This document shows positions 2,263 through 27,979 of a stretch of 30,448 bases of DNA, one piece after another. The notes beneath the pieces were generated by a model that ran no database searches, was not told the origin of the DNA, and saw only the letters and a program-made list of their open reading frames with translations. The translations under genes and the position numbers were made by a program. This DNA is from a virus, in the IMG/VR virus record IMGVR_UViG_3300008735_000069, positions 1 to 30,448 of that record; one strand, written 5' to 3'. The first letter of the stretch is position 1. Every line of letters starts with the position of its first letter.

Positions 2263-2300
2263 GACTTGTAGTTTATTTATAACTGATAGTTTATTAAAAT

Positions 2301-2333: not shown

Positions 2334-3248
2334 ATGGCTGAACAAAATAAAGCCACTGTTGAGTTTGAAAATGACGAAGCAGTTGCTGAAGAAATACGTA
2401 CAGACATAAACCCGCAAGATATCGTTCAGAACCCTTCTGAGTATGCCGAACAAATGGCTGCTCAGAGAGGCTCTGAGATTGATAAGATGGCGGGTTTTAC
2501 TGTACCTCGCGATTATGTAATTCTACCCTCTAAGGGTAGAGTTTATTCAGTTGAATCTCCCCTATATAATATGGAAGAAATTGAAGTTAGGCATCTTACT
2601 GCTGCCGATGAAGATATTTTGACCTCTAGAGCTTTATTAAGAAGCGGAAAAGCTATTGACACTTTATTAGATAATGTAATAATTAATAAAAGTATTAGGT
2701 CCGAAGAATTAGTTTCAGGTGATAAGAATGCTATTATGACTTTTTTGAGAATAACGGGGTATGGTCCCGAATATAATATTGAGATTTCTTGTCCGGGCTG
2801 TGGTGAAGATTCTAAGGCTGAATTTGATCTTACCCAACTTAATATGAATATGTTAGATGTAAATCCAGTTGGCGAAGGGCTAAATAGGTTTGAATTTAAG
2901 ATGCCTTCGGGAACCATTATTCATTTTAAATTTCTCACAAGTAAAGAAGAAAAGATCATTTCTGATGAACAAGATAGAATTAAGAAGATGACTAATTCTC
3001 CTTTGGATCATAATATTACATTGCGATTACAGCATCAACTTATTTCCATAGATGGTAATGAAGACCCAACATATATTCAAAACTATATTAATGTAATGAA
3101 TGTTAGAGATTCCCGTGCATTTAGAAAATATTTTGATGAAGTTGAACCAGATGTTATTATGAAACAGAAGTTTACATGCGCTTTATGCGGCCATGGCGAG
3201 GAGGTGGACATACCGGTTACGGTAGACTTCTTTTGGCCTGACGACTAG
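2334..3248 (+). CDS. Baseplate/tail assembly protein (T4_baseplate, gp26/gp51-like), upstream frame
   Basis: The 304-residue product lies between the tube and tape-measure genes, where contractile-tail phages keep their tape-measure chaperone or hub-assembly gene. The N-terminal 55 residues are acidic and probably flexible. The folded part begins near FTVPRDYVILPSKGRVY and continues with EIEVRHLTAADEDILTSR, which resembles the T4 gp26/gp51-type baseplate family. Two CxxC pairs, C153/C156 (SCPGCGE) and C282/C285 (TCALCGHGEE), look like the two halves of one zinc ribbon. The frame stops at TAG 3246-3248, but a conserved-looking reading frame continues at once in the +1 frame to 3474. The GGAG site at 2321 supports the start. 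The exact T4 equivalent (gp26 or gp51) is not certain. Confidence 0.7.
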   Translation: MAEQNKATVEFENDEAVAEEIRTDINPQDIVQNPSEYAEQMAAQRGSEIDKMAGFTVPRDYVILPSKGRVYSVESPLYNMEEIEVRHLTAADEDILTSRALLRSGKAIDTLLDNVIINKSIRSEELVSGDKNAIMTFLRITGYGPEYNIEISCPGCGEDSKAEFDLTQLNMNMLDVNPVGEGLNRFEFKMPSGTIIHFKFLTSKEEKIISDEQDRIKKMTNSPLDHNITLRLQHQLISIDGNEDPTYIQNYINVMNVRDSRAFRKYFDEVEPDVIMKQKFTCALCGHGEEVDIPVTVDFFWPDD

Positions 3249-3474: not shown

Positions 3475-3480
3475 ATATTG

Positions 3481-3510
3481 TCCCTTCACTTAATTTTTAA
3501 AGTGAAGGGA
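3481..3510 (+). terminator. Hairpin after the assembly gene, terminator-like
   Basis: TCCCTTCACTT (3481-3491) pairs perfectly with AAGTGAAGGGA (3500-3510), an 11-bp stem with an 8-base loop, starting 6 bases after the stop at 3474. TATTTATTTATG follows, so there is no uninterrupted T-run. It sits before the small basic gene and the tape measure and may reduce read-through into them. Confidence 0.6.
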
Positions 3511-3543
3511 TATTTATTTATGTAGCAACCTATATGGAGAAAA

Positions 3544-3846
3544 ATGATGAAGAAAAATAAAACAAATGAGGGTACTGGCGGCTATTATGATGTACCTTTT
3601 GATGAGCCAGAAAGCGGTTTAAAACAAATGGCTAAAGGCGCATTAATGGGTCTTGGTGTTGTTGGAGCTATTAGTTGGTTAGAGAAACATGGTGACACTT
3701 TACATGATAAACGCAATAAAGAAGAATTAAAAAAAGTAAAAAAGAGTTTAAAGGGGTATAAGTTTTCCAAAGCTCAATTAGATAAAAAAAATAAAGAAGG
3801 TATGAAATTAAAAGATGTACTTTCTAAGCTTTGGATGGGTAACTAA
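3544..3846 (+). CDS. Small basic protein of unknown function before the tape measure
   Basis: The 100-residue product is not recognised. The first 25 residues are polar. Residues 26-46 hold a Gly/Ala-rich, moderately hydrophobic stretch (QMAKGALMGLGVVGAISWLE) that could be an amphipathic helix or a weak membrane segment. The rest is strongly Lys-rich and looks helical (KKVKKSLKGYKFSK and so on). Two ATG codons are adjacent at 3544 and 3547; GGAG at 3535-3538 favours the first. It ends 13 bases before the tape measure, so it is probably co-translated with it. Position and charge suggest a tail-assembly partner or a minor internal tail protein, but that is inference only. Confidence 0.6.
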   Translation: MMKKNKTNEGTGGYYDVPFDEPESGLKQMAKGALMGLGVVGAISWLEKHGDTLHDKRNKEELKKVKKSLKGYKFSKAQLDKKNKEGMKLKDVLSKLWMGN

Positions 3847-10036: not shown

Positions 10037-10357
10037 ATGGCTATTTCAAGATATAATAAATTTTCACAAGTAAGATCTAACTCTAAAGACCCATATAGGC
10101 TAGAAACATTCCCGTCTATCAGTTCTGAAGAGCTGGACAATGTACCTCATAACGTAGTTATGTGGAAAGAAACTGATCGAATGGATGCAATGGCAGAAGA
10201 TTTGTTGGGCGATGCTCGTTATTGGTGGATCATATGCTTGATGAATGATTTAGTAAATCCTTTTTCTTATAAATTATTACCTGGCACTCTTATAAAAATA
10301 CCGCATGATGCTACGGTGGTGTCAAATTTAATTAAAAGAAAACAAGAAGGTAAATAA
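10037..10357 (+). CDS. Baseplate wedge protein with LysM-like fold (T4 gp53-like)
   Basis: This 106-residue protein has the conserved gp53-type stretch at residues 49-95: MDAMAEDLLGDARYWWIICL followed by NDLVNPFSYKLLPGTLIKIP. In the family this is a LysM-like alpha/beta fold that joins neighbouring wedges to the central hub in the baseplate and is not used for peptidoglycan binding. T4 gp53 has 196 residues; this shorter form with little beyond the LysM-like core is common in other myoviruses. The start is nine bases after the previous stop, with AGGATATAT as a weak ribosome site. Its stop codon overlaps the next start (TAATG, 10355-10359), so translation is probably coupled to the giant hub gene. 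Confidence 0.8.
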   Translation: MAISRYNKFSQVRSNSKDPYRLETFPSISSEELDNVPHNVVMWKETDRMDAMAEDLLGDARYWWIICLMNDLVNPFSYKLLPGTLIKIPHDATVVSNLIKRKQEGK

Positions 10358-13300
10358 TGAATGTAGTTAAGCCTAAAGAATTATCTCCGGTAGGTGGAAG
10401 TTTAGGTTTTGGTGCGCCTGACCCTAAACAAGATGTTATAGATGGGTGGAATTGGAAAACAACAAACGCTAATACACCAGAAATAGATGGTCTTGTGCCT
10501 TTTGTGCAATTAATTGGACTTTATAATGAAGAAGAAATTAATCGTTTAGTAGATACAGACATTAATTGGCAAGACGATGCGCGTACCGTTGTTTTTGTTG
10601 AAAATGGTGAAGAGCAAGATTTAAGTAGTGTCGCTATTGAGGAAAGTGGTTATCAAGGCCAAGTTAAAACTAATATTGCCGAAGAACAAAGAGAATATTT
10701 TGATAAAGAGTTAAGAAGTAAGTTTGTTGGCGTAACGGTATTAGACGAAACTAAAAGAGATGATAGTGTCGTTACTCCTGGTATTATATTAGCTACTAAC
10801 GCCTCTCAGGCAGGTAATGAAGCATATCAGTATTATTCGGGTACAGGTATACCTAAAGATGCTGGTGGATTAGGTATAAGTGATTTACAAATAGAAACAG
10901 GCACTAAAGATTTTATGAATCGCCGGTATAAATTAAGATTAACTGTTACTGATCCTCAAGCTTTAAATAATGAGCCACAATATTTAAAACTTACTACACT
11001 ACAAGCTCAATTTTTAATTATTCATGGTTGGTCTAATCCACAATCAATGGCTGGTTGGCCTGGCGATGCACCACCGCAGGTAGAGGCACCGACAGCAGCT
11101 TGGCCTAATGGAAAAATGTTAGTTGATTTAACACAACAAAATACAGGTGGCGCATGGGGTGCTGCAGTAGTGGCCTTGACAATGTTTGATTTCGCCTTTA
11201 ATGAAGTAGGTCAATTGGAAGCAAGTTTTACTTTTATGCCGCGAGAAATAAGTTTTTTGGCTACCTACAGGATACCTGTAATTGCGGAATCTTCTTTAAG
11301 ATTATTGGGTACCGGCGAAAAACAAGAACCTTCTAATGCTGAAGATCCTTATAGTTCTCCAAGCATATTTGCGGGATTATCAACAGGATTATTGTCTGTG
11401 GCCGGAGAGTTTGGAAAAAATTTAGCTGACGTTATTGCTGAAGAACAGGCGGCTTACGCTAACAAAAATGACAACATTAAAGGGCTGTTTGATTTATTAG
11501 ACGATACTCCGGCCAATTCTGCTATAGATACTTTAAGGGATTGGTCAGAACAAGCAAGTGAATGGAGTGGTAATTTAAGTGCCTTAATTGAAAGACAACA
11601 AGAACAAGAAAGTAGATATAGATTTCCTTATGCTGGGCCTGGTATAAGAACTTATGAAAAAATAAAAAGGTCAGTACCGGACCCAAATTATTCGGGAGAA
11701 TCAAGCACTGATAATGCTGATTCTATGACAACTGTAACAGAACATAAAACGCGTTTGTCTTATTATTATTTGGGTTGGATATTGGAAGCTGTGCGCTTTG
11801 GTATGTGGGATTTAAATAAAAATAAAGTTAGGCGAGGTGAAACCCCTTTTAATGTTAGATTTAGATATATGCCTATACCTCCCGAATCAAATTCTTATTT
11901 TAATTTATCGTTTCAAGAGACATTAAGGTCTGGTTTAGTTCCTAACACTTCATCTTATGTACAAGAAGCAGTTAAAAAATTATTAAGTGATTGCTTTCCA
12001 GGTTTAAATCTTTATGACCCTATGAAAGAAGAGATGGATTGTCCGGCAGATTTGGTTCGTTCAAGACCAATGACAGAGTGGGATTTAAACGAAGGATGGC
12101 CAGCTGCATGGGAAAAGACCAAAAGCACTCTTAGTGATTCTTTTAAGAATATAGACGGCTCATGGGAGTTTAAATATTTTAGACCGGAGCAATTAGGGCG
12201 TTATGCAATTATTGGACGACTTGGTGAAGGTGAGTTTGCCCCTAATGTATGGGACACTAAAACAAGAGAAGAAAAAATTGCCTTTATTGAGTCTGGTGAT
12301 TGGCGTAGATCGTTAGTAGTAGATCCACAAGAGGGTGGTTATTTGAGAATAATGCACCCCGATTATGAATATCAAATATTATATACAATGCGTGTGCCAG
12401 TTGAAGGTTGGTGGATTCGCTCGGCAGGTAGTGGAGATCTCCCAACCGATGTGGCCGATGCTGGTAAGGCTTCAAAGAAGAAAAGCGCGCAGAGTGGCCA
12501 GGCGCACGCGGTTGCCCTTGCAGTACTATCCCCGAACTCGACTGCAGCCGGTCGCGCTTCAAATGTAACTGTTGAAACAGCAGAACATATAATTGGCGAT
12601 GAATGGGCGTTTTTGGGAACATCGGATAAACGATTTGGGGAACAGTATAGTAATATACAAGAGCAAACGCTGCGTACAGGATATAGTTATAATCAAGTAT
12701 TAGCTGAACAGGCCGCGGCTACACCTTTCGCAACAGCCGAACAAAAAGAGTCGGCTGCTGGAACGATGATGTCGCCCATAGCATATATATATTCAAAATA
12801 TAATAATTTTTTTGTAGGTGATATTAGCGCTACTCCCGAATATGGTCTTTTTTCTCCCGCATCTTCAGCAAGATATTATTCCGGAGAATATGTAGCTCTT
12901 CAAAGACGATGGTATAACAAGCATCGTGAATATATGTCTCAACTTTTTGAAAATATAATAAGAAGTAGAATTGAAGTTGCAATGGAGCAAGGTCAAACAA
13001 TAGCCGATATAGCTGATGAACCTGTTGATTTGGCTTGGTTAACTGGTAAGAAATATCATACGTCTGCTGGCGCTGACTTAAGAAGAGCTGGAGTAGCAGG
13101 CGGCGCATTTCCGAGTTTTGATGATAGTTGGTGGAACGGACCCCAATCAATAATACAAGCAGAATCGACATGGAGTGTTGAGTATATTAAAAATGAGGGT
13201 CATAAGTTAATAGTTGAATCACAACAAGAGTTGATGAGTGATTTAGATGAAAAAATTGAAGATGCTGAAGAGGTGTTAAATACATTTACTGCATCTAGGA

Positions 13301-16300
13301 GCAATAGAGGAAACACATATTTGATGGAAACATCACTATCTCAAATTCAATATGCTGATAGAAATAGATTTGGGTCGTTAAATACTTTGTTTAATGCTGA
13401 AGATTTAAGATCTGGTGCCTTACGAGGTGCTGAAGGTATATCAGCGGAATTAGAGTTTTGGAAATCACGATTAAGTATCGTATTGTCTGAGTTATATAAC
13501 AATGATATAATAAGTTTTACAACCCAAAGTCAAGGTGCTGGACCTCCTAACCTTACTCATGCTGGTCAATTAGCACCGCCCGATGGTGTTCCCTCAAATC
13601 GTGGTGATGCAACGATAAGAACGATGATACCGGATGCCTCACAGATTGATATACTTAGTTTTAAAAATATAAAAATAGAAAATGGGTATAATACCCCTAT
13701 GTTTGATACTAAAAGTGGAGGTTATGAGCCAGTTGATTTTGATCTTTTTTTTCAAATGGCCGATGCGGGGGGCGACTTCCAAGGTTTATATAATGAAGGA
13801 ATACGAAGATATGTAGTAACAACATTTGATGAAGAAAATATAACTTTAAATTTGGAAAATATTAATAGAATAGGTAATATGGGTCTTTCAGAAATGGAAA
13901 TGGAATATGATTTATGGCCCAATAAATCTTATCTACAATATATGTTTATGGCTACTATGACACCAATAGCACCCGTACAAATAAACAATATGCTCAATAA
14001 TATACCTATAATTTATTCTGATAGGTATTGGTCTGCTGAAGCCTTACTAATAGCAGCTAAAAATGATAGAGGTATTATGCAAACCTTAACTCAAGCGCGC
14101 CATATGTTGTGGAATCATATAAAAAGACAACGGCGTTTGGTTAGGAGGTATTTAGAAAAAATACAAGAATTGCTTGAGACACAAAACTCTTCTGGTGTAT
14201 CTTTACAATTAATGCGAGATACTCTTGATGATTTAAGAGGTAGGAAAATAATATTAGAAAGAAGTCTTGCAGCTTTTGATAATGAAGTTGCTCGTGGCCC
14301 TTTTGAAACTACAAGCCCTTATGCTACACCAGTGGTGTTAGATAAAGGAGGAGGTAGGTCAGTTGAATTAGGGTCATTAGTTGCTCAACAATACGAACAA
14401 AGATTTAGAGTGAGAGAGGTTAATGGCGCTAATGATATACATAATTATGGACCACCGGCCGGTGGATTATCTTATATTGATCCGCAAGAAAGAAATTGGG
14501 GTTGGTGGGGTGATCAAGAGTTCGGGCCAATTATAGCAGACGCGGAGGGAGTTTTAAATCCTAACGATAGTAGAGTAGCTCAACAAAACAGGGTTAGAGA
14601 TACAGAAGCTAAGGCAAATTATGGAGATTGGAATGCTCCCGTATCTATTTTAGATGTGGAAGCGATGAGAGAAAAATTAGAATATGAATGGAATGGGGAA
14701 ACATATCTTGTAAGACATGATGATATTAACACTTATACACTTGGGGGAAAGGCACCCACACATGGCAATGGTGTGCCATTTGGGTTAATTAGTGAATCGG
14801 CTTTGCTTAATGGCCATGTTTCTATTTTACCACAAACCAAAGTAATAGATTTAGTTAGGGCTGGGTTTGTTAATACCGATCTTATAAAAGAATTATTGCT
14901 TTATCGTTATGGTTGGGATAATATTGGATTTATGGGTAATGCAGGGGAATATGCCGATCCAAGTGAAGAAGATTTGATTTTTTCCAAAATTATTAGGGGG
15001 TTTTGGCCTTCAATAATATATAGTGATTTTTACGATTTCAAAAATAAAACAGCCGAAGAAAGGGTCGCTAACGCCGTACTTACTCCGTTGGAATATGTAG
15101 ATCAAGATTTAGATTTTGTTGGTCCTGCATATTGGCAAGCTGAGAATGAAAATACTTTTTCAGTTGTTGGTCACAGTGATTATGCTTATTTAAGAAACGC
15201 TCAATGGGAAACTCCCGAGGATATGAGTACATGGATTAAAATAGCTCATCATTGGGGTATCTTTGCGGCTGTCGGGTCGCGACAGGATGTATTGTACCCC
15301 TCTTCTTTAGGATATAGAATAGGAGAAAACCGACACCTCTCTGCAATACCTATAGCGGCAACGAGACAGCTTGTTAATATTAAAAGCAGAAAAGATATTA
15401 CTAAGGTAGCTGTGGGTGGTTATTCAAATAATCCGGATTGGGCTGACGTACCTAACGAGATAAGTGCAACAGAAAACAATTTTGATACGACCGGTCGCCC
15501 ACGCCTTGTGGATGGAGGTGTTAGTTATCCATATGGTGCGCCAGGTGTTAACACTGGCAGTTTAACTGCGGTAAGAGGGTCTTTCATAAAAGGTTGGCCG
15601 GATGATGATGTCTATGCGGATAGAACAGAAAATATGAAAAACTCTGCCCCTACCATTCATTCTATATTAGATTCATTACCTCCAGAATTTGAAAGAGGGT
15701 TTCTTACTTCAACAAAAAACGCTAATCCAAATTTTGCTGGTGGACCCGAAATGAACGGTCCTTTGGCGGAGTTTATTTATAAGTATTTAATTTATTTGCT
15801 TCCCCAAGGTAGAAGAATAGGTCATCATCCGAATTATGATGCTGATGGTAATTCTTTAAGTCAGTACAGGCGAAAAGTTAGAGATGTTACTTATGGCGAT
15901 TTATTTGATGAAGTTATGAGTCGCATGACTACAATGGCTGATTTTACAAATCAAACTATACAAAATGTAGCTGAAATACCTATCAAAAGAGAAGTTATTG
16001 ATAATTTATTGAATAGAAAAAACGCCAATATGTCATTATTAAATTTTATTCAACAAGTTATGTCGCCTAACTCTATAGGGCTAGCTGGAAATGTTCAAAT
16101 AGGGGCGAGAAATATAAATGGAATAGTAGAGCTTTTCCCTGCCACTATTTCTTATAAAGGTAAAGTAACTGATATATTTAAAAACCAAGCTATAGCTGAT
16201 GATAATAACAAGCCACCGGAAGATCAATTATCGTTTGATTATAAAAGAAAAAATTCTTTGATTCAATCTATAGATATGAGTTCTAAAATGGACCCTGCTG

Positions 16301-16836
16301 CATTTCTTACTTATCAAAATTCTTCGGATCTCTTAAGGGGTCGCGATTATAATGTATTAAAATTACTATCATATGAAGGTGTAGCTGAAGATTTTAAAGA
16401 ATTTTTAGATGGAACCGCTAATGTAGATAATGCTGGAGAAAATTATAGTGGTGTTATAACATATGGCGCAGGCAACAAAATTAAAATAGATAAAGCAAGA
16501 TTTGATAAAGTACCTACTGGTATTATAGATTCTTTTATATCTCAAGATCCGGAAAGATGGGCTAAGATAACAGCTATGATGCAGGGGAATAATAATTTTA
16601 CAACTGAACTGTTAGCCTTTTATATGAGGGCTGTTACATTAACAATACATGGAATGACTAATATCCAACCCTTTAATTTGGTAAATGTAAGAGGGGTGCT
16701 ACCGGCCTTGGAGGGTGTTTATATAGTAACTAACCTTACTGAAAAAGTTACACCCACTGAATTTCAAACTATTTTGGAAGGAAAGTTACTTAAAAGAAAA
16801 AGGTTAGTGCCAGGCGGTAGAGATGTTTTTATATAA
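10357..16836 (+). CDS. Giant baseplate hub-like structural protein (2159 residues)
   Basis: The largest gene of the window. The N-terminal part has a hub-like stretch at residues about 191-228 (YKLRLTVTDPQAL, then LTTLQAQFLIIHGWSNP). The last 120 residues end as central hub proteins of contractile tails often do: LTIHGMTNIQPFNLVNVRG, then LEGVYIVTNLTEKVTPTEFQ and ILEGKLLKRKR. Between these ends lie some 1500 residues I do not recognise, with alternating Trp/Tyr-rich beta-like and charged helical parts (for example residues 1240-1310, RHMLWNHIKRQRRLVRRYLE). A GC-rich Ala/Ser/Lys linker lies at residues about 689-735. No lysozyme or peptidase signature is evident. It starts inside the stop of the gp53-like gene and is followed by the sigma gene. 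T4 gp27, the usual hub, has 391 residues. Virion role is confident; the hub assignment is moderate. Confidence 0.72.
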   Translation: MNVVKPKELSPVGGSLGFGAPDPKQDVIDGWNWKTTNANTPEIDGLVPFVQLIGLYNEEEINRLVDTDINWQDDARTVVFVENGEEQDLSSVAIEESGYQGQVKTNIAEEQREYFDKELRSKFVGVTVLDETKRDDSVVTPGIILATNASQAGNEAYQYYSGTGIPKDAGGLGISDLQIETGTKDFMNRRYKLRLTVTDPQALNNEPQYLKLTTLQAQFLIIHGWSNPQSMAGWPGDAPPQVEAPTAAWPNGKMLVDLTQQNTGGAWGAAVVALTMFDFAFNEVGQLEASFTFMPREISFLATYRIPVIAESSLRLLGTGEKQEPSNAEDPYSSPSIFAGLSTGLLSVAGEFGKNLADVIAEEQAAYANKNDNIKGLFDLLDDTPANSAIDTLRDWSEQASEWSGNLSALIERQQEQESRYRFPYAGPGIRTYEKIKRSVPDPNYSGESSTDNADSMTTVTEHKTRLSYYYLGWILEAVRFGMWDLNKNKVRRGETPFNVRFRYMPIPPESNSYFNLSFQETLRSGLVPNTSSYVQEAVKKLLSDCFPGLNLYDPMKEEMDCPADLVRSRPMTEWDLNEGWPAAWEKTKSTLSDSFKNIDGSWEFKYFRPEQLGRYAIIGRLGEGEFAPNVWDTKTREEKIAFIESGDWRRSLVVDPQEGGYLRIMHPDYEYQILYTMRVPVEGWWIRSAGSGDLPTDVADAGKASKKKSAQSGQAHAVALAVLSPNSTAAGRASNVTVETAEHIIGDEWAFLGTSDKRFGEQYSNIQEQTLRTGYSYNQVLAEQAAATPFATAEQKESAAGTMMSPIAYIYSKYNNFFVGDISATPEYGLFSPASSARYYSGEYVALQRRWYNKHREYMSQLFENIIRSRIEVAMEQGQTIADIADEPVDLAWLTGKKYHTSAGADLRRAGVAGGAFPSFDDSWWNGPQSIIQAESTWSVEYIKNEGHKLIVESQQELMSDLDEKIEDAEEVLNTFTASRSNRGNTYLMETSLSQIQYADRNRFGSLNTLFNAEDLRSGALRGAEGISAELEFWKSRLSIVLSELYNNDIISFTTQSQGAGPPNLTHAGQLAPPDGVPSNRGDATIRTMIPDASQIDILSFKNIKIENGYNTPMFDTKSGGYEPVDFDLFFQMADAGGDFQGLYNEGIRRYVVTTFDEENITLNLENINRIGNMGLSEMEMEYDLWPNKSYLQYMFMATMTPIAPVQINNMLNNIPIIYSDRYWSAEALLIAAKNDRGIMQTLTQARHMLWNHIKRQRRLVRRYLEKIQELLETQNSSGVSLQLMRDTLDDLRGRKIILERSLAAFDNEVARGPFETTSPYATPVVLDKGGGRSVELGSLVAQQYEQRFRVREVNGANDIHNYGPPAGGLSYIDPQERNWGWWGDQEFGPIIADAEGVLNPNDSRVAQQNRVRDTEAKANYGDWNAPVSILDVEAMREKLEYEWNGETYLVRHDDINTYTLGGKAPTHGNGVPFGLISESALLNGHVSILPQTKVIDLVRAGFVNTDLIKELLLYRYGWDNIGFMGNAGEYADPSEEDLIFSKIIRGFWPSIIYSDFYDFKNKTAEERVANAVLTPLEYVDQDLDFVGPAYWQAENENTFSVVGHSDYAYLRNAQWETPEDMSTWIKIAHHWGIFAAVGSRQDVLYPSSLGYRIGENRHLSAIPIAATRQLVNIKSRKDITKVAVGGYSNNPDWADVPNEISATENNFDTTGRPRLVDGGVSYPYGAPGVNTGSLTAVRGSFIKGWPDDDVYADRTENMKNSAPTIHSILDSLPPEFERGFLTSTKNANPNFAGGPEMNGPLAEFIYKYLIYLLPQGRRIGHHPNYDADGNSLSQYRRKVRDVTYGDLFDEVMSRMTTMADFTNQTIQNVAEIPIKREVIDNLLNRKNANMSLLNFIQQVMSPNSIGLAGNVQIGARNINGIVELFPATISYKGKVTDIFKNQAIADDNNKPPEDQLSFDYKRKNSLIQSIDMSSKMDPAAFLTYQNSSDLLRGRDYNVLKLLSYEGVAEDFKEFLDGTANVDNAGENYSGVITYGAGNKIKIDKARFDKVPTGIIDSFISQDPERWAKITAMMQGNNNFTTELLAFYMRAVTLTIHGMTNIQPFNLVNVRGVLPALEGVYIVTNLTEKVTPTEFQTILEGKLLKRKRLVPGGRDVFI
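12421..12560 (+). other. GC-rich patch inside the giant hub gene
   Basis: By hand count this 140-base stretch is about 60% G+C, while the 60 bases before and 40 after are about 33-37%. It encodes a low-complexity Ala/Ser/Lys/Gly-rich segment that reads like a linker, and the frame stays open across it. A recently acquired or rapidly evolving insertion is a reasonable inference. Confidence 0.7.
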
Positions 16837-16874
16837 TTATTATTATTTATTAAAATAAAATGTTACTATATCTT

Positions 16875-16880
16875 AAAGGA
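16875..16880 (+). promoter_or_regulatory. Ribosome binding site AAAGGA of the sigma factor gene
   Basis: AAAGGA lies five bases before the ATG at 16886 and fixes the start. The 49-base gap before it is nearly all A and T and contains TTATTTAT (16843-16850), so a separate promoter for the sigma gene is possible. I see no hairpin there. Confidence 0.55.
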
Positions 16881-16885
16881 TAAAT

Positions 16886-17539
16886 ATGAAATATTGGGGC
16901 GAAGATCAAGAATACGCTGTTGTTGAGTTTAATACTAACGCAGACATGGATGAGAAGCATAAAGTTTTTGTAGACGTAATAGAGCCAGCCTTTCGCAAAC
17001 TTGTAGAAAACATTTACTATACTTATAATTTTAATAAAATATTGTGGGATAGAGAACAGATTGAGCATGAAGTAATGACCCATCTGTATGAAAAGTTAAG
17101 CAAGTTTGACATTTCTAAAAACAAAAAATCTTTTTCTTATTTTGGAACCATCACAAAAAATTGGATGATACAGCGATGTAATGCTGATAAGAATAAAAGA
17201 TTTATTGATGATGACAATCAAGATATTATTGTGCAGAATATTAGTATTCATGCCTATGAAGAAGATGAGGTGGGGCGACACAATGAAGAATTTATAAATG
17301 AAATCATTGGTGACTTTGATGATTGGGACGCAAAAGAAAATTATACAAGAGATGATTTCGCTGTTTTAGAAATAGTTAATGATATACTCAAAAACTATGA
17401 GCGATTTAATATTTATAATAAGAAACAACTTTATGTCTATATTAGAGAGGCAACAGATTTGCCGAGTCGTAAAATAACCAAGTCGTTAAAGAAAATAAAA
17501 TTGGATTATTTTAATGTTAAAGAAGATTTTATAGGTTAA
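16886..17539 (+). CDS. Late-transcription sigma factor, T4 gp55-like
   Basis: The 217-residue protein resembles phage sigma factors that redirect host RNA polymerase to late promoters. Residues 56-105 form a sigma region 2-like segment: DREQIEHEVMTHLYEKLSKF, then DISKNKKSFSYFGTITKNWM, then IQRCNADKNKR. The 'FD..K.K.FSYF..I.KN..I.R' order is the hallmark shared with T4 gp55. An acidic spacer follows (about 106-160). Residues about 180-204 (KQLYVYIREATDLPSRKITK and on) look like a helix-turn-helix, which T4 gp55 (185 residues) lacks. The C-terminus, LDYFNVKEDFIG, is acidic-hydrophobic, like the sliding-clamp-binding tail of gp55. It is placed between hub and spike genes, unlike T4 gene 55. AAAGGA supports the start. 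The sigma-like nature is fairly sure; the late role comes from the family. Confidence 0.75.
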   Translation: MKYWGEDQEYAVVEFNTNADMDEKHKVFVDVIEPAFRKLVENIYYTYNFNKILWDREQIEHEVMTHLYEKLSKFDISKNKKSFSYFGTITKNWMIQRCNADKNKRFIDDDNQDIIVQNISIHAYEEDEVGRHNEEFINEIIGDFDDWDAKENYTRDDFAVLEIVNDILKNYERFNIYNKKQLYVYIREATDLPSRKITKSLKKIKLDYFNVKEDFIG

Positions 17540-17540
17540 G

Positions 17541-17720
17541 ATGGGGCAAGATAAATTAAAGGAAAATGCCGAAAGATATGTTGAGTTATTATCTTCTTAT
17601 CAAGACTATATGGTGGCTATGGAGCAAGTAGTTAAGAAAGTTGTAGAAACAAGAAAAGAGTTAGTTTTTTTAGAAGGTGAGTTAAAAAAAGATGGAGCTA
17701 CAATAAAAGACGTAGGGTAA
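17541..17720 (+). CDS. Small helical protein of unknown function
   Basis: This 59-residue frame starts one base after the sigma stop and ends six bases before the spike gene, which fits a real, translationally coupled gene. The protein begins MGQDKLKENAERYVELLSSY and continues with a Val/Lys/Glu-rich heptad-like region (MEQVVKKVVETRKELVFLEG), so a single long helix or short coiled coil is likely. There is no Cys and no obvious catalytic motif. It has no strong ribosome site of its own and may depend on termination of the sigma gene. It could be a small baseplate assembly factor or a partner of the sigma factor; neither is shown. Confidence 0.65.
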   Translation: MGQDKLKENAERYVELLSSYQDYMVAMEQVVKKVVETRKELVFLEGELKKDGATIKDVG

Positions 17721-17726
17721 TATAAA

Positions 17727-19325
17727 ATGGCACGAAGAGGTGGGGAACCATTACAACAAGAGTTTAATAGAGGGTATGATTTTATTCTCAACACTTACGG
17801 CTCTGCTCAAAATACTATGCCAGATAAAAATACTATTTTTTTATTAGGACATGGTATTGTTATAGATATTGATTTTAATATTACTAAAAATTATAAAATG
17901 GCTGCTGGCCAACCTCCATTTAGCATATATGCTAAGATTATAGGGGAGGATTTAGATATAAATAGGCCCGATTTAGAAGTGGAACAAATATATTATTCTC
18001 CATTATTGCCTATACATAATTTATCAATTCCGGAAATTGGTGAAGAAATTATTATAATGAGAGAAAATAATGTAATTGGATCAAAAGGATATTATTTTGG
18101 AAGAGTAGCAAACACTGCTACTTTAAATTATTATCCGGCGCGTGAATATATGGACAATGTTAATTCTGCAGCTGTTTCGCCTGAATTTAAATATGGATTT
18201 TCTTTTGATGTAAATGAACTTAGAAGTCGTAAAATTGATCAAATGCCTAGTGATAACATTGAATCCATATCTATTCCAGTAACTTTTGGTGATGTAGTTC
18301 AACAAGGCCGGACCCAAAGCTATATAAGGCACTCTTTTAATAAGAATAATAAAAAAGGTGTTTTAGAACAAGGGCTGCGATTACAACAACAAAATATTGC
18401 GACTAATATAAATAATGATATTTTTTTTAATGATGATTTAAATACAACTCCTAGTTATGATCCAAGTATTGGTCAAACTGCAACTAAATCTATTCATTTT
18501 GTTGATACATCTATAAAAAGATTGGGTAATTATGGGTTAGCATCTACTTTGCCTCAACAACCATTTCAAGACAATCTTGATAGTGATGTGGAAAGATCTA
18601 TGATTGCTAATGTAGCAGATGAAATATATAATATCTCTAGCTCTAATATTGATCCTAATTTATATAGGCAAGTTTTAGGTGAAAAATTAATATCTCATCA
18701 AAAAGAAACAAGTGCGTTAATTAATACTATGCTAAATGGATTAACAGGGTTGGCTGAAACTGTAGGTGTTCTTTTAGATGCATTTGTTGACCACGAACAT
18801 GCATTACCAAAAATAGAATTAAATTTAGAAAAAAGCATTACTGCTGCTGATAGATATGTGGTTCCTGCAAGATATGAACAACAGCCGCCGCAAAAAATTA
18901 CTGTTCCATCGCGGCGAGTAAGAGTTAGAACAGGATATGATATGAAAAGACGGCGCGCTATTTATATTAATGTTAATATGCCGGGCTTTCAAAGAGAAGT
19001 AGAAAGGCCGCCTAAGTTAGTGCGCCCAGCGCGTACACGCGTTAGACATAAAACTCATAAGATTAATTTTGAAGCCATTATTGGCGGCGAAGAAAATCCA
19101 AGATTTACCGCACCTATACAAACTGATGAGCCAACGAGCGAAGAGACTAATCAAGTATTTGGGAGTGTCAACACAACAACAAAGACACAAGTGGGGTTAA
19201 AAACAGAAAGGGTTGATCAATCTTCGGAAGAACTAATTGAGTTATTTAATCGTCAAAAAGATCAGTTAAACATGATATTTAATAAGGCAACAGATTTTTT
19301 AAGTAAGAATCAATTTATAAATTAG
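17727..19325 (+). CDS. Baseplate central spike/hub protein with OB-fold (gp5-like, no lysozyme seen)
   Basis: A 532-residue structural protein just before the gp25-like gene. Residues about 89-127 (YYSPLLPIHNLSIPEIGEEI, then NNVIGSKGYYFGRV) match the OB-fold of gp5/gpV-type spike proteins, where a 'P.IGE.V' strand is followed by 'G.YY.G.V'. Residues about 317-371 form a helical segment (GEKLISHQKETSALINTMLN followed by LLDAFVDHEHALPK) as seen in OB-fold baseplate proteins of other myoviruses. Residues about 392-450 are Arg-rich. I see neither the lysozyme domain of T4 gp5 nor a clear repeated beta-helix needle, so the tip or enzyme may be another gene. The ATG has a poor ribosome site (GGTAATATAAA). 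Structural role sure; precise spike role moderate. Confidence 0.68.
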   Translation: MARRGGEPLQQEFNRGYDFILNTYGSAQNTMPDKNTIFLLGHGIVIDIDFNITKNYKMAAGQPPFSIYAKIIGEDLDINRPDLEVEQIYYSPLLPIHNLSIPEIGEEIIIMRENNVIGSKGYYFGRVANTATLNYYPAREYMDNVNSAAVSPEFKYGFSFDVNELRSRKIDQMPSDNIESISIPVTFGDVVQQGRTQSYIRHSFNKNNKKGVLEQGLRLQQQNIATNINNDIFFNDDLNTTPSYDPSIGQTATKSIHFVDTSIKRLGNYGLASTLPQQPFQDNLDSDVERSMIANVADEIYNISSSNIDPNLYRQVLGEKLISHQKETSALINTMLNGLTGLAETVGVLLDAFVDHEHALPKIELNLEKSITAADRYVVPARYEQQPPQKITVPSRRVRVRTGYDMKRRRAIYINVNMPGFQREVERPPKLVRPARTRVRHKTHKINFEAIIGGEENPRFTAPIQTDEPTSEETNQVFGSVNTTTKTQVGLKTERVDQSSEELIELFNRQKDQLNMIFNKATDFLSKNQFIN

Positions 19326-19336
19326 AGAGTGTAAAA

Positions 19337-19870
19337 ATGCCACAATCAGCCGAAAATTTTGGTGGTAAACCAGCAATAACAGATCCTTTTTATCCGGATG
19401 GGTATACATCAACTGATCAAGATAGGCGTAGACTTATAGCGCAGAAAGAAAAATATGCACCAGCGGTTGGGTCTATTAATTTTAAATTCCCTTTGAAGTC
19501 GGTTAATAGAGGATTTTTCCAAGGTAACACTACTACTATAACAGCAGTTAGAGAAGATATAAAAACCTTATTAATGACCGTCAAAGGCGAAAGAGTAATG
19601 AATAAAAATATGGGTACTAATATTCCTGTATTAGCTGGTCAATTATTTGAACCTATTAGACAAGTTGAGTTATTAGAAAAAATTAAAATGGAAATAAATA
19701 ATGCAATCGAAACTTATTTACCTTTTATAAAGTTACAAAATGTGAATCTTACAACGAGTGAAGACGATCCAAGTTTAACTGTAAATCAGGTAAGGGTTTC
19801 TATGGCTTATATTATAAAAGACCAACAAGCTATGGCTGATAAAATTACTTTTACAGTAACATCTACATAG
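19337..19870 (+). CDS. Baseplate wedge protein gp25-like
   Basis: The 177-residue protein contains the gp25/W domain. The core starts with INFKFPLKSVNRGFFQGN and AVREDIKTLLMTVKGERVMN, then the conserved GTNIPVLAGQLFEP followed by the helix LLEKIKMEINNAIETYLPFI and a final beta sheet. In the family this domain primes sheath polymerisation at the baseplate and packs against gp6 and gp53 in the wedge. T4 gp25 has 132 residues; the extra 45 are an N-terminal extension (to about residue 48). GAGAG at 19324-19328 precedes the start by eight bases. It lies directly before the gp6-like gene, as in many contractile systems. Confidence 0.92.
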   Translation: MPQSAENFGGKPAITDPFYPDGYTSTDQDRRRLIAQKEKYAPAVGSINFKFPLKSVNRGFFQGNTTTITAVREDIKTLLMTVKGERVMNKNMGTNIPVLAGQLFEPIRQVELLEKIKMEINNAIETYLPFIKLQNVNLTTSEDDPSLTVNQVRVSMAYIIKDQQAMADKITFTVTST

Positions 19871-19879
19871 AGAAAAAAT

Positions 19880-21739
19880 ATGCCAACACAAAGTTTAAAT
19901 AGAGATATTAATTATTTATCTAAAGATTTTGATTCCATAAAGGATGACTTGATAGATTATGTCAAACGTCATTTTCCAAATGATTGGCGTGATTTTAATG
20001 ATGCATCGGGAGGTATGGCTATATTAGATATGATGGCCTATATTGGAGATGTCTTAAGTTTTAATATTGATAGGCAAGTAAATGAAGCTTATATTAATAG
20101 AGCAGTAGAGGTTAAAAACATAGTTTCCTTAGCCGAAAATTTTGGATATCGGCCGAAAAATAACACTCCAGCTATTGTTAATTTATCAGTTAGTGCTGAT
20201 TTTACTACTTCTACTTCGGGAAATGAATTATGTAAATTGAAAAAAGGTGCAAAAGTTTTTACAAATTATGAACCAGTCGTCCCATTTGAGATTTTAACAG
20301 ACGTTGATTTTTCTCAACCAGACCATAGAGTAGTTAATCCCGATAATGGAGGAACTACTACAGTATCTATTTCTAGTGTTTCTGCAGCTGCCGGTGTGAC
20401 GAAAACTTTTTCTTACAAAGTAAATGATGCAATTAAGTTTTTGAAAGTTACGTTGCCCGATAAAAATGTTAATGAAGTTGTATCCGTTTCAGCAATTGAT
20501 GGTGCTCAATATTACCAAGTAGATTCATTGGCTAAAGATACAATTTTTATAGGAGATATAAATGGGGATGCATCCACTTCTGGAGATGCGGTTTATATAT
20601 TAAAAATAAAAAGAGTACCGAAAAGATATACTGTTGAATTAGAACCTAATGGATTAACTTCAATAAGATTTGGTTCGGGTATTATGAATGAGGCTGACAG
20701 TGAAATAATACCTAACCCTAATGATTTTGTTTTGCCGCCATCATTAAGAGGGTCGCCTTCTGGTTTTGCTCCAGCAGCTATTCAATCTACCAATTTTTTA
20801 AAAACCAATTCATTAGGAGTTGCACCTAGAGACACCACTGTTGTAATTACATATAGGCAAGGCGGCGGTGTTAATGGAAATGTTGGCCCTAATTCTATTA
20901 CAAGGTTTGTAGAAAAAGAAATACAATTTATTACTCCTAATTTTTCTAATGATAATGCTGACAAATCTCGTACGATATTTGAAAGTATTGCTTGTAATAA
21001 TGCATATCAAGCAAGTGGTGGTGAAGAAGGCGAAAGTATTTCTTCTATAAAGATAAATGCTATAAATAATATGTCTTCTCAATTAAGATGTATTACATTA
21101 CAAGATTATCAAGTAAGAATAATGTCAATGCCATCACAGTTCGGAAGTGTTTTCAGGAGTTTTGCAAGAAAAGATCCTACAAATAATTTGGGAGTAGAGT
21201 TATTTTTAGTTACAAGAAACTCTGTTGGCCAACTAACAACTCCAAATAATGTTATAATTAATAATGTAGAGAAATATATACAGCAATTTAGATCCTTTTC
21301 TGATAGTGTAAAATTTAATGCGGGGCGAATAGTTAATATAGCAATAGAATTTGTTATTGTTCCATCTCAAGACGCTAATTTTGCTGAAGCATTGATAGAT
21401 ACAATATTATTATTACAACGACAATTTGATACATCAAGAACAAATTTTAATGATTCAATAATTACATCAGAAATAATTGCTCTTATTCAATCGCAAAAAT
21501 CAGTTTTATCAGTATCAGAGTTTAAAATTATAAATAGAACAGGTACAGTAGATGGAAGAAACTATTCTAGTGTCGCCTATAATATAAATGCTAATACATC
21601 TTCGGGTATATTAAAATTTGGGCAACGAGATGTATGGGAATTAAAATATCCTAATTTTGATATCGTAGGTAGAAGTGCTGATCAATCAACAGCCGCAGCT
21701 CAAGGTGTTGCCGGTGGCAGCGCTGGCGGCGGATATTAA
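19880..21739 (+). CDS. Baseplate wedge protein gp6-like (baseplate J family)
   Basis: This 619-residue protein is the main wedge component that forms the ring around the hub; T4 gp6 has 660. The N-terminus is typical: LNRDINYLSKDFDSIKDDLI, then FNDASGGMAILDMMAYIGDV, then SFNIDRQVNEAYINRAVE. A beta-rich middle follows. The baseplate-J-like part with LQDYQVRIMSMPSQFGSVF and a C-terminal gp6-like domain (YIQQFRSFSDSVKFNAGRIV) completes the family order. The last 20 residues are Ala/Gly-rich and may be disordered. It starts nine bases after the gp25-like stop (AGAG upstream) and ends 12 bases before the next gene. The assignment is strong. Confidence 0.92.
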   Translation: MPTQSLNRDINYLSKDFDSIKDDLIDYVKRHFPNDWRDFNDASGGMAILDMMAYIGDVLSFNIDRQVNEAYINRAVEVKNIVSLAENFGYRPKNNTPAIVNLSVSADFTTSTSGNELCKLKKGAKVFTNYEPVVPFEILTDVDFSQPDHRVVNPDNGGTTTVSISSVSAAAGVTKTFSYKVNDAIKFLKVTLPDKNVNEVVSVSAIDGAQYYQVDSLAKDTIFIGDINGDASTSGDAVYILKIKRVPKRYTVELEPNGLTSIRFGSGIMNEADSEIIPNPNDFVLPPSLRGSPSGFAPAAIQSTNFLKTNSLGVAPRDTTVVITYRQGGGVNGNVGPNSITRFVEKEIQFITPNFSNDNADKSRTIFESIACNNAYQASGGEEGESISSIKINAINNMSSQLRCITLQDYQVRIMSMPSQFGSVFRSFARKDPTNNLGVELFLVTRNSVGQLTTPNNVIINNVEKYIQQFRSFSDSVKFNAGRIVNIAIEFVIVPSQDANFAEALIDTILLLQRQFDTSRTNFNDSIITSEIIALIQSQKSVLSVSEFKIINRTGTVDGRNYSSVAYNINANTSSGILKFGQRDVWELKYPNFDIVGRSADQSTAAAQGVAGGSAGGGY

Positions 21740-27345: not shown

Positions 27346-27353
27346 ATATTTAT
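27342..27353 (+). promoter_or_regulatory. Candidate late promoter, ATAAATATTTAT palindrome
   Basis: A perfect 12-base palindrome overlapping the stop codon (27343-27345) and lying 53 bases before the next ATG. The left half, CATAAATA, differs by one base from the T4 late -10 TATAAATA. ATATTTAT recurs at 27375-27382 in the same 61-base gap. With a gp55-like sigma in the window, a late promoter for the following structural gene is reasonable but unproven. Confidence 0.35.
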
Positions 27354-27406
27354 ATAGGATTTATCTTGGTATATATATTTATTAAGATTAAATAAAGGAA
27401 AAGAAT

Positions 27407-27979
27407 ATGGCATTTTTAGATAGCTCTACAGCTGTAATAGACGCGATACTTACACGAAAAGGTAGAGAATTACTTGCGCGAAATGATGGTAGTTTTCAAG
27501 TTACTAAGTTTGCTTTTGGTGATGATGAAATTAATTATCAATTGTATGATGCTACTAAAGCTACAGACCAAGATGCGGATATTTTAAATTTGCCAGTTTT
27601 GGAGCCTGTATCTAATGAGAATGTAGCTTTACTTTATAGATTAATTACTTTACCCAAAGGTAGTTTAAAGATTGCAAATTTACAAGTTTCTCCTACTTCG
27701 GGCACAGTGGATTATGGTACTGATTTAATTATTGATGTTTCTACTGATAATGGAGAAGATAGTCAAGGTTATGCAGCTACAGTTAGAGATACGGATATTG
27801 GTGTTTTGACAAATACTACCGCCACACCTAATCAAAATGGCCAAGGTACATTTACTATAAGAACCGGAGCTAACGCAGGCGGTAAGTCTGGTCAAACAAT
27901 AGTAGATATTACAGGTATTAATAGTGGTGCGAGAAAAGAATTTACTTTAACGGTAAGTGCTTCTGGCGCTGCAGCGTAA
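27407..27979 (+). CDS. Virion structural protein with C-terminal Ig-like domain
   Basis: The 190-residue protein begins MAFLDSSTAVIDAILTRKGR, then ELLARNDGSFQVTKFAFGDD and EINYQL, an N-terminus I know from virion proteins of many myoviruses (jumbo and marine phages among them), where it occurs near the baseplate or fibre genes. Residues about 83-187 are beta-rich with Thr/Gly repeats (LQVSPTSGTVDYGTDLIIDV to the final EFTLTVSASG) and look like a bacterial Ig-like domain of the kind often found on phage surfaces and thought to give weak attachment to carbohydrates. It is preceded by a 61-base gap with promoter-like boxes and has an AAAGGA site at 27394-27399. The exact location in the virion is not known. 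Confidence 0.7.
   Translation: MAFLDSSTAVIDAILTRKGRELLARNDGSFQVTKFAFGDDEINYQLYDATKATDQDADILNLPVLEPVSNENVALLYRLITLPKGSLKIANLQVSPTSGTVDYGTDLIIDVSTDNGEDSQGYAATVRDTDIGVLTNTTATPNQNGQGTFTIRTGANAGGKSGQTIVDITGINSGARKEFTLTVSASGAAA

Follow-up and report, generated by a model that had tools for sequence, protein, structure and literature searches.

Late transcription in phage T4 is tied to replication via the sliding clamp. The T4 late sigma factor, gp55, ends in a clamp-binding tail (SLDFLYEAND), and its gene lies in the early/replication region, as a first-pass annotation of the DNA analysed here had rightly stated; in phages Moby and S-CAM9, gp55 adjoins uvsW and gp47/46. The T4 gp55-dependent open complex with RNA polymerase has been solved (7d7c), its promoter-pocket residues include F86 and Y97 (PMC7892883), and the N-terminal segment of T4-related gp55 keeps aromatic residues at positions 10 and 23 (PMC2988020). 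Phage promoters upstream of a sigma gene have also been described (PMC4331800), the promoters of phiEco32 being single-element, and positive feedback has already been proposed for the sigma factor gp47 of phage 7-11 (PMC8948821), so that phage-sigma positive feedback is not new in principle.

Here, we describe a gp55-family sigma gene in a window of 30,448 nt (the whole stretch of DNA that was analysed, a marine phage fragment from IMG/VR virus record IMGVR_UViG_3300008735_000069) and compare it with its relatives. Like 7-11 gp47 and phiEco32 gp36 (PMC8948821, PMC4331800), it is a phage sigma with a candidate phage-specific promoter before its own gene; those phages, however, form an unrelated group, and the sigma gene of 7-11 does not open a baseplate block but lies in the functional gene cluster. 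Much closer are gene 152 of the cultured Flavobacterium phage immuto (MW353176) and WWT39502.1 of Microcystis phage Mel-JY01, which belong to the same family (26-27% identity) and show the same order before gp25-gp6, but have a late-type TATTTAT after the sigma gene, have other upstream neighbours and are annotated as hypothetical. New are the family, the extra domain together with the apparent lack of clamp parts, and the switch of a promoter-like element between the two sides of the sigma gene. In the clade to which the window belongs (the window clade), the late sigma probably heads an operon that it transcribes itself, which would amount to positive feedback.

The sigma gene product

The gene (Table 1) has an ATG start, 217 codons and an AAAGGA ribosome site upstream, and its product is a gp55-family late sigma factor, a distant relative of that of T4, an identity on which PHROG, profile, decoy and structure results agree and which the first-pass annotation had proposed. 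The sole PHROG match is phrog_234 ('late sigma transcription factor', E 5.2e-6), whereas the Pfam Sigma70_r2 match is weak (E 0.005, under the curated cut-off); Sigma70_r2 is matched by 34 of 48 members of the family. An AlphaFold2 model of the protein aligned with 47 relatives (pLDDT 82) has a sigma region 2 fold, confirmed by the kind of structural comparison that the annotation had suggested: when Foldseek candidates were re-aligned with VIA, the best match was T4 gp55 (7d7c_F, Z 11.3, 115 residues, 4.4 A), which covers model residues 2-130, and the next-ranked matches are sigma factors. Foldseek's own E-values are non-significant, and the profile comparison therefore carries weight: in hhalign, the 48-member alignment matched nine T4-type gp55 sequences at 89% probability (E 2e-6, 104 columns), and reversed decoys, with one side flipped, reached 0.2-0.3%. 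A search of solved structures by sequence profile gave nothing useful.

Besides the region 2 fold, the protein shares with T4 gp55 the N-terminal segment with its two aromatic positions (T4 Y10 and W23 align with Y3 and F15) and the equivalents of the pocket residues F86 and Y97 (F74 and Y85). Invariant in the family are Y3, Y85 and F86, Y3 and Y85 being present in all 48 members, and the family motif reads NKKALYIYIRE..D..TP.ITK..KKL. The positions of T4 H95 and T99 are F83 and G87 in the window protein and are not conserved with T4, from whose gp55 it further differs by an extra C-terminal helical domain and the lack of a clamp-binding motif.

Table 1. Features of the window around the sigma gene and at the other sites discussed.
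Feature	Position	Strand	Basis
TATTTATA (2274) and TTTATTAAAAT (2290) before hub gene at 2334	2274..2300	+	immuto hub homolog also with TATTTATA
TATTTATT element before ORF at 3544	3511..3518	+	
Gap before sigma, 49 nt, AT-rich; promoter candidate and ribosome site	16837..16885	+	conserved across clade
Late-promoter-like element TATTTATTAAAAT, core TTTATTAARAT from 16846	16844..16856	+	motif searches
gp55-family late sigma factor gene, 217 aa	16886..17539	+	phrog_234, hhalign, VIA vs 7d7c_F
Sigma region 2 domain, residues ~1-106; T4-equivalent Y3, F15, F74, Y85	16886..17203	+	hhalign columns, invariants
Extra C-terminal helical domain, residues 131-217, HTH-like, not in T4 gp55	17276..17536	+	AF2 alone
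59-aa coiled-coil-like ORF, 1 nt after sigma	17541..17720	+	homologs in 29 clade loci
532-aa ORF, no family match, clade-conserved	17727..19325	+	PHROG/Pfam searches
Baseplate wedge gp25	19337..19870	+	phrog_261 E 1e-13, PF04965 (GPW_gp25) E 2e-9
Baseplate wedge gp6	19880..21739	+	phrog_219 E 3e-24
TATTTATA (27347) and TATTTATTAAGAT (27376) before gene at 27407	27347..27388	+	immuto gene 163 also with TATTTATA

Gene order around the sigma gene

The annotation had placed all genes on one strand, with a 49-base AT-rich gap before the sigma gene, and both statements hold: all 20 non-overlapping ORFs of the window lie on the + strand, and the gap is there. It had also placed the gene between hub and spike genes; the baseplate cluster is real, but neither immediate neighbour has a profile match that would bear out its label. 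The 'baseplate hub' match (phrog_150) is the gene at 2334-3248, 14 kb upstream of sigma, and the first recognisable genes downstream of sigma are gp25 and then gp6. The upstream neighbour is a 2159-aa ORF (10357-16836) with no family match, whose C-terminal ends vary, and are partly non-homologous, among close relatives (the window and L002-L019); despite this varying 3' end, the 45 nt directly before sigma are conserved among close relatives.

The order sigma, small ORF, ..., gp25, gp6 recurs in 47 of the 50 relatives whose sequence is long enough to show it. With iterated profiles, and counting only loci with at least 5.5 kb downstream of sigma, gp25 followed by gp6 lies within 6 kb of sigma on the same strand in 13/13 loci of the window clade and 34/37 distant ones, the exceptions being L045, which is without gp25-gp6, and L048 and L090, in which the pair is further away. 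The sheath, tube, hub, o721 and gp53-like genes of the window have their immuto homologs at 147-156.5 kb, and its sigma, gp25, gp6, o535, o1143, o190 and o291 have theirs at 78-93 kb. Two blocks (sheath-to-gp53 and sigma-gp25-gp6) are thus separate in immuto and adjacent in the window, with sigma as the seam, which is why it appears to lie inside the baseplate cluster. What is conserved is that sigma opens the gp25-gp6 block, not that it is inserted into a baseplate cluster; the annotation's view of a sigma gene within the tail-baseplate cluster describes the window correctly and fails as a phage-specific trait, since this is the conserved head of the sigma...gp25-gp6 block. The T4-type gp55 genes, in contrast, lie among early or recombination genes.

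The small ORFs flanking sigma differ between lineages. An ORF of ~112-137 aa (GDATLIVPLIKEYLEIGVKNDEQLIKMATIIQR) directly follows sigma in most distant loci, in place of which the window clade has a coiled-coil-like ORF of 59-76 aa, and an ORF of ~88-106 aa with a DDEVGTFF..NLKEIQ-type ending directly precedes sigma in many distant loci.

Promoter-like elements and the proposed circuit

The two sides of the sigma gene differ between the window clade and the distant relatives. Within 45 nt after the sigma stop, TATTTAT is present at 68/72 distant loci, which are mutually related and so represent a lineage pattern and not 72 independent cases, and at 0/29 loci of the window clade, in which the next ORF starts 1 nt after sigma or overlaps it. 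In the 60 nt before sigma, TTTATTAARAT or TATTTAT is present in 16/20 loci of the window clade and 0/68 distant ones, counts that again follow lineages and not independent events. With TATTTAT placed after it, sigma in the distant relatives would stay outside the late operon.

Related elements occur elsewhere in the window. TTTATTAARAT, which was taken from the sigma gap first, so that its window count is post hoc, occurs three times on the + strand (0.23 expected under a Markov model), always in gaps, before the 2334, 16886 and 27407 genes; the sigma-gap and 27407-gap copies are found again in five other contigs, and the hub-gap copy in the only one of them to cover that gap. The motif TATTTAT[AT], derived from relatives and not from the window, has five copies in + gaps, where gap composition predicts 0.48, one in - gaps and four in + coding sequence. 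The gap of the tube gene has no such element, and the T4 late motif TATAAATA, in place of which TATTTATA/TTTATTAARAT is found here, gives no signal in the window (5 on +, 6 on -). In the hub-gene gap, the core is followed by GTAACTATA, which was considered as a shared -10 and rejected: G001, a relative, does not conserve it, and it belongs to an inverted repeat, CTTGTAACTATACAAG, which lies before the ribosome site of the hub gene (2334) and of which the G001 copy retains the outer stem only. Hairpin-like inverted repeats are also seen at 1680-1720 (sheath-tube gap) and at 3478-3515 (before the 3544 ORF), the latter directly before TATTTATT.

As in T4, immuto has the virion genes gp20 and gp23, which are T4-like, and single-block late elements. 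A TATTTAT-type site ([AG][AC]TATTTATAAWAAA), with no -33 element or second conserved block, precedes 19 late/structural gene starts, and leaders of the GTTGc-N20-TATATTTAGGTATCAATAATT type are found at 18/19 of the early genes sampled, both gene lists having been picked by reading gaps, so that these counts describe and do not test. Less exposed to this choice is the strand asymmetry of [AG][AC]TATTTATA in immuto, with 18 copies on + and 1 on -. The single-block TATTTATA-type element is presumed to be the immuto late promoter. It precedes the immuto homologs of the window's hub gene and of its 27407 gene (immuto gene 163), both of which have an element upstream in the window and in immuto. In a matrix trained on immuto late sites, window coding sites outscore gap sites and the sigma gap ranks ~14th; the element is thus somewhat different between the clades, and we claim similarity and shared gene positions of these sequences, not identity. 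The early region of immuto (L125) at 67-74 kb contains many small genes with the near-identical leader GTTGc-N20-TATATTTAGGTATCAATAATTAAAA.

From these distributions we infer that the motifs are late promoters and that the sigma reads them, although they could instead be ribosome-site context or another regulatory signal. In the proposed model, sigma would contact the host RNA polymerase through its region 2 domain and guide it to late promoters that are AT-rich and consist of a single block. Most of the group would make sigma separately, from its own bipartite element or by coupling to the preceding ORF, and sigma would then start the baseplate operon at TATTTAT. In the window clade, which lacks the site after sigma and has a related element before the gene, a single late operon would comprise sigma, the small ORF and the baseplate genes, and sigma would activate it in a positive feedback after a first supply via read-through or an unrecognised early promoter. 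The annotation had offered two readings of the gap: its feedback branch gains support at the level of sequence, in that the gap holds a promoter candidate like those before other structural-region genes, while an early host-type start finds none, as the region around the gap has 18 sigma-70-type matches and shuffles of it have 15.8 +/- 3.5, a chance-level count that a single true promoter would also fit.

In the alternative to be weighed most closely, which we regard as rather unlikely, the protein is a late sigma whose gene is expressed early or in the middle phase, whether transcripts run on into it from the tail block or start at a host-type promoter that escaped recognition; the element would then mainly serve the baseplate genes, and feedback would be minor. 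Any scheme needs a first supply of sigma, and distant relatives in the F group (L047-L111) have a dedicated bipartite element, TTTGGTTAYG-N13-TATATTG/TATAATG, ~50 nt before sigma and almost nowhere else in those loci; in immuto, sigma overlaps the preceding ORF, and in the window clade the core is followed by a conserved GTTACTATA that might act as an extended -10. Against these points stand the lack of a sigma-70-type excess and the spacing of 1 nt between sigma and the next ORF, by which a gap promoter for the baseplate genes would also transcribe sigma. We retain the self-transcribed late operon as the probable reading for the window clade.

The C-terminal domain, clamp partners and the family

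Modelled alone with AF2, the C-terminal domain gives a pLDDT of 92.6 and a pTM of 0.83, with four helices and an HTH-like look over ~87 residues. This confident prediction of an extra domain, and the fact that the entire protein can be aligned with sigma-E and AlgU, if with a high rmsd, would suit an ECF-type two-domain sigma that scores with gp55 by chance and reads bipartite promoters through a region 4-like domain of its own. Fold searches with the domain alone, however, returned weak HTH-type matches with no clear relative and no sigma region 4, and thus did not confirm a region 4 identity; the N-terminal segment shared with T4 gp55 (aromatic positions 10, 23) is without recognisable sigma-70 counterpart (PMC2988020), and the immuto late sites lack a -33 block, which together make an ECF-type protein improbable. 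It is more improbable still that the gene encodes no sigma but a baseplate structural protein or chaperone sharing the helical fold, for which its position among baseplate genes and the weak Pfam scores under cut-off could be cited, against the profile, structure and decoy results and the residues conserved at the T4 promoter pocket.

A conserved equivalent of the C-terminal clamp-binding motif is absent from 101 family members; the motif is likewise missing from the three cyanophage gp55 sequences in our alignment, and so does not define all gp55 members. No gp33 or gp45 is recognisable in the GenBank records of immuto, Mel-JY01 and LR756508, which may be another difference from T4: PF16805 (gp33) has no match in them, although divergent partners could escape, and PF02916 (gp45) has a single weak sub-cut-off match, in LR756508. 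The bacterial clamp (PF00712) was likewise not found in these records, all searched as deposited, with immuto and Mel-JY01 titled complete genome and LR756508 (484 kb) titled genome assembly. Their DNA polymerases are of family A in immuto and family B in Mel-JY01 and LR756508. While phrog_234 alone missed most members in the relatives' GenBank records, the family's own profile recovered just one per record; for the window, a 30-kb fragment, a second gp55 may lie outside the sequence. In T4, this profile has a weak match at 43.9-44.1 kb, outside gene 55. We tentatively entertain, as a possibility well short of even, a clamp-independent gp55 branch whose C-terminal domain would take over from gp33 and gp45; in one of its clades, the late promoter would have moved from behind to in front of sigma, turning a feed-forward switch into a self-amplifying one.

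The family comprises at least 568 loci in IMG/VR, mostly uncultured, and is represented in the phage collection by six records from three lineages, with the sigma annotated as hypothetical or not annotated. A paper on Baltic Flavobacterium phages that uses immuto's host strain does not mention a sigma factor, and the search, which covered open-access papers, turned up no other account of the family. It is a large gp55-type family with T4-like virion genes, and its member immuto, a cultured phage with a polymerase of family A and no clamp recognised, opens the timing of late genes without a clamp to experiment. The late element may serve to identify late genes across many metagenomic phages, and the family, with its putative promoter before or after sigma, sets two naturally occurring circuit designs side by side.
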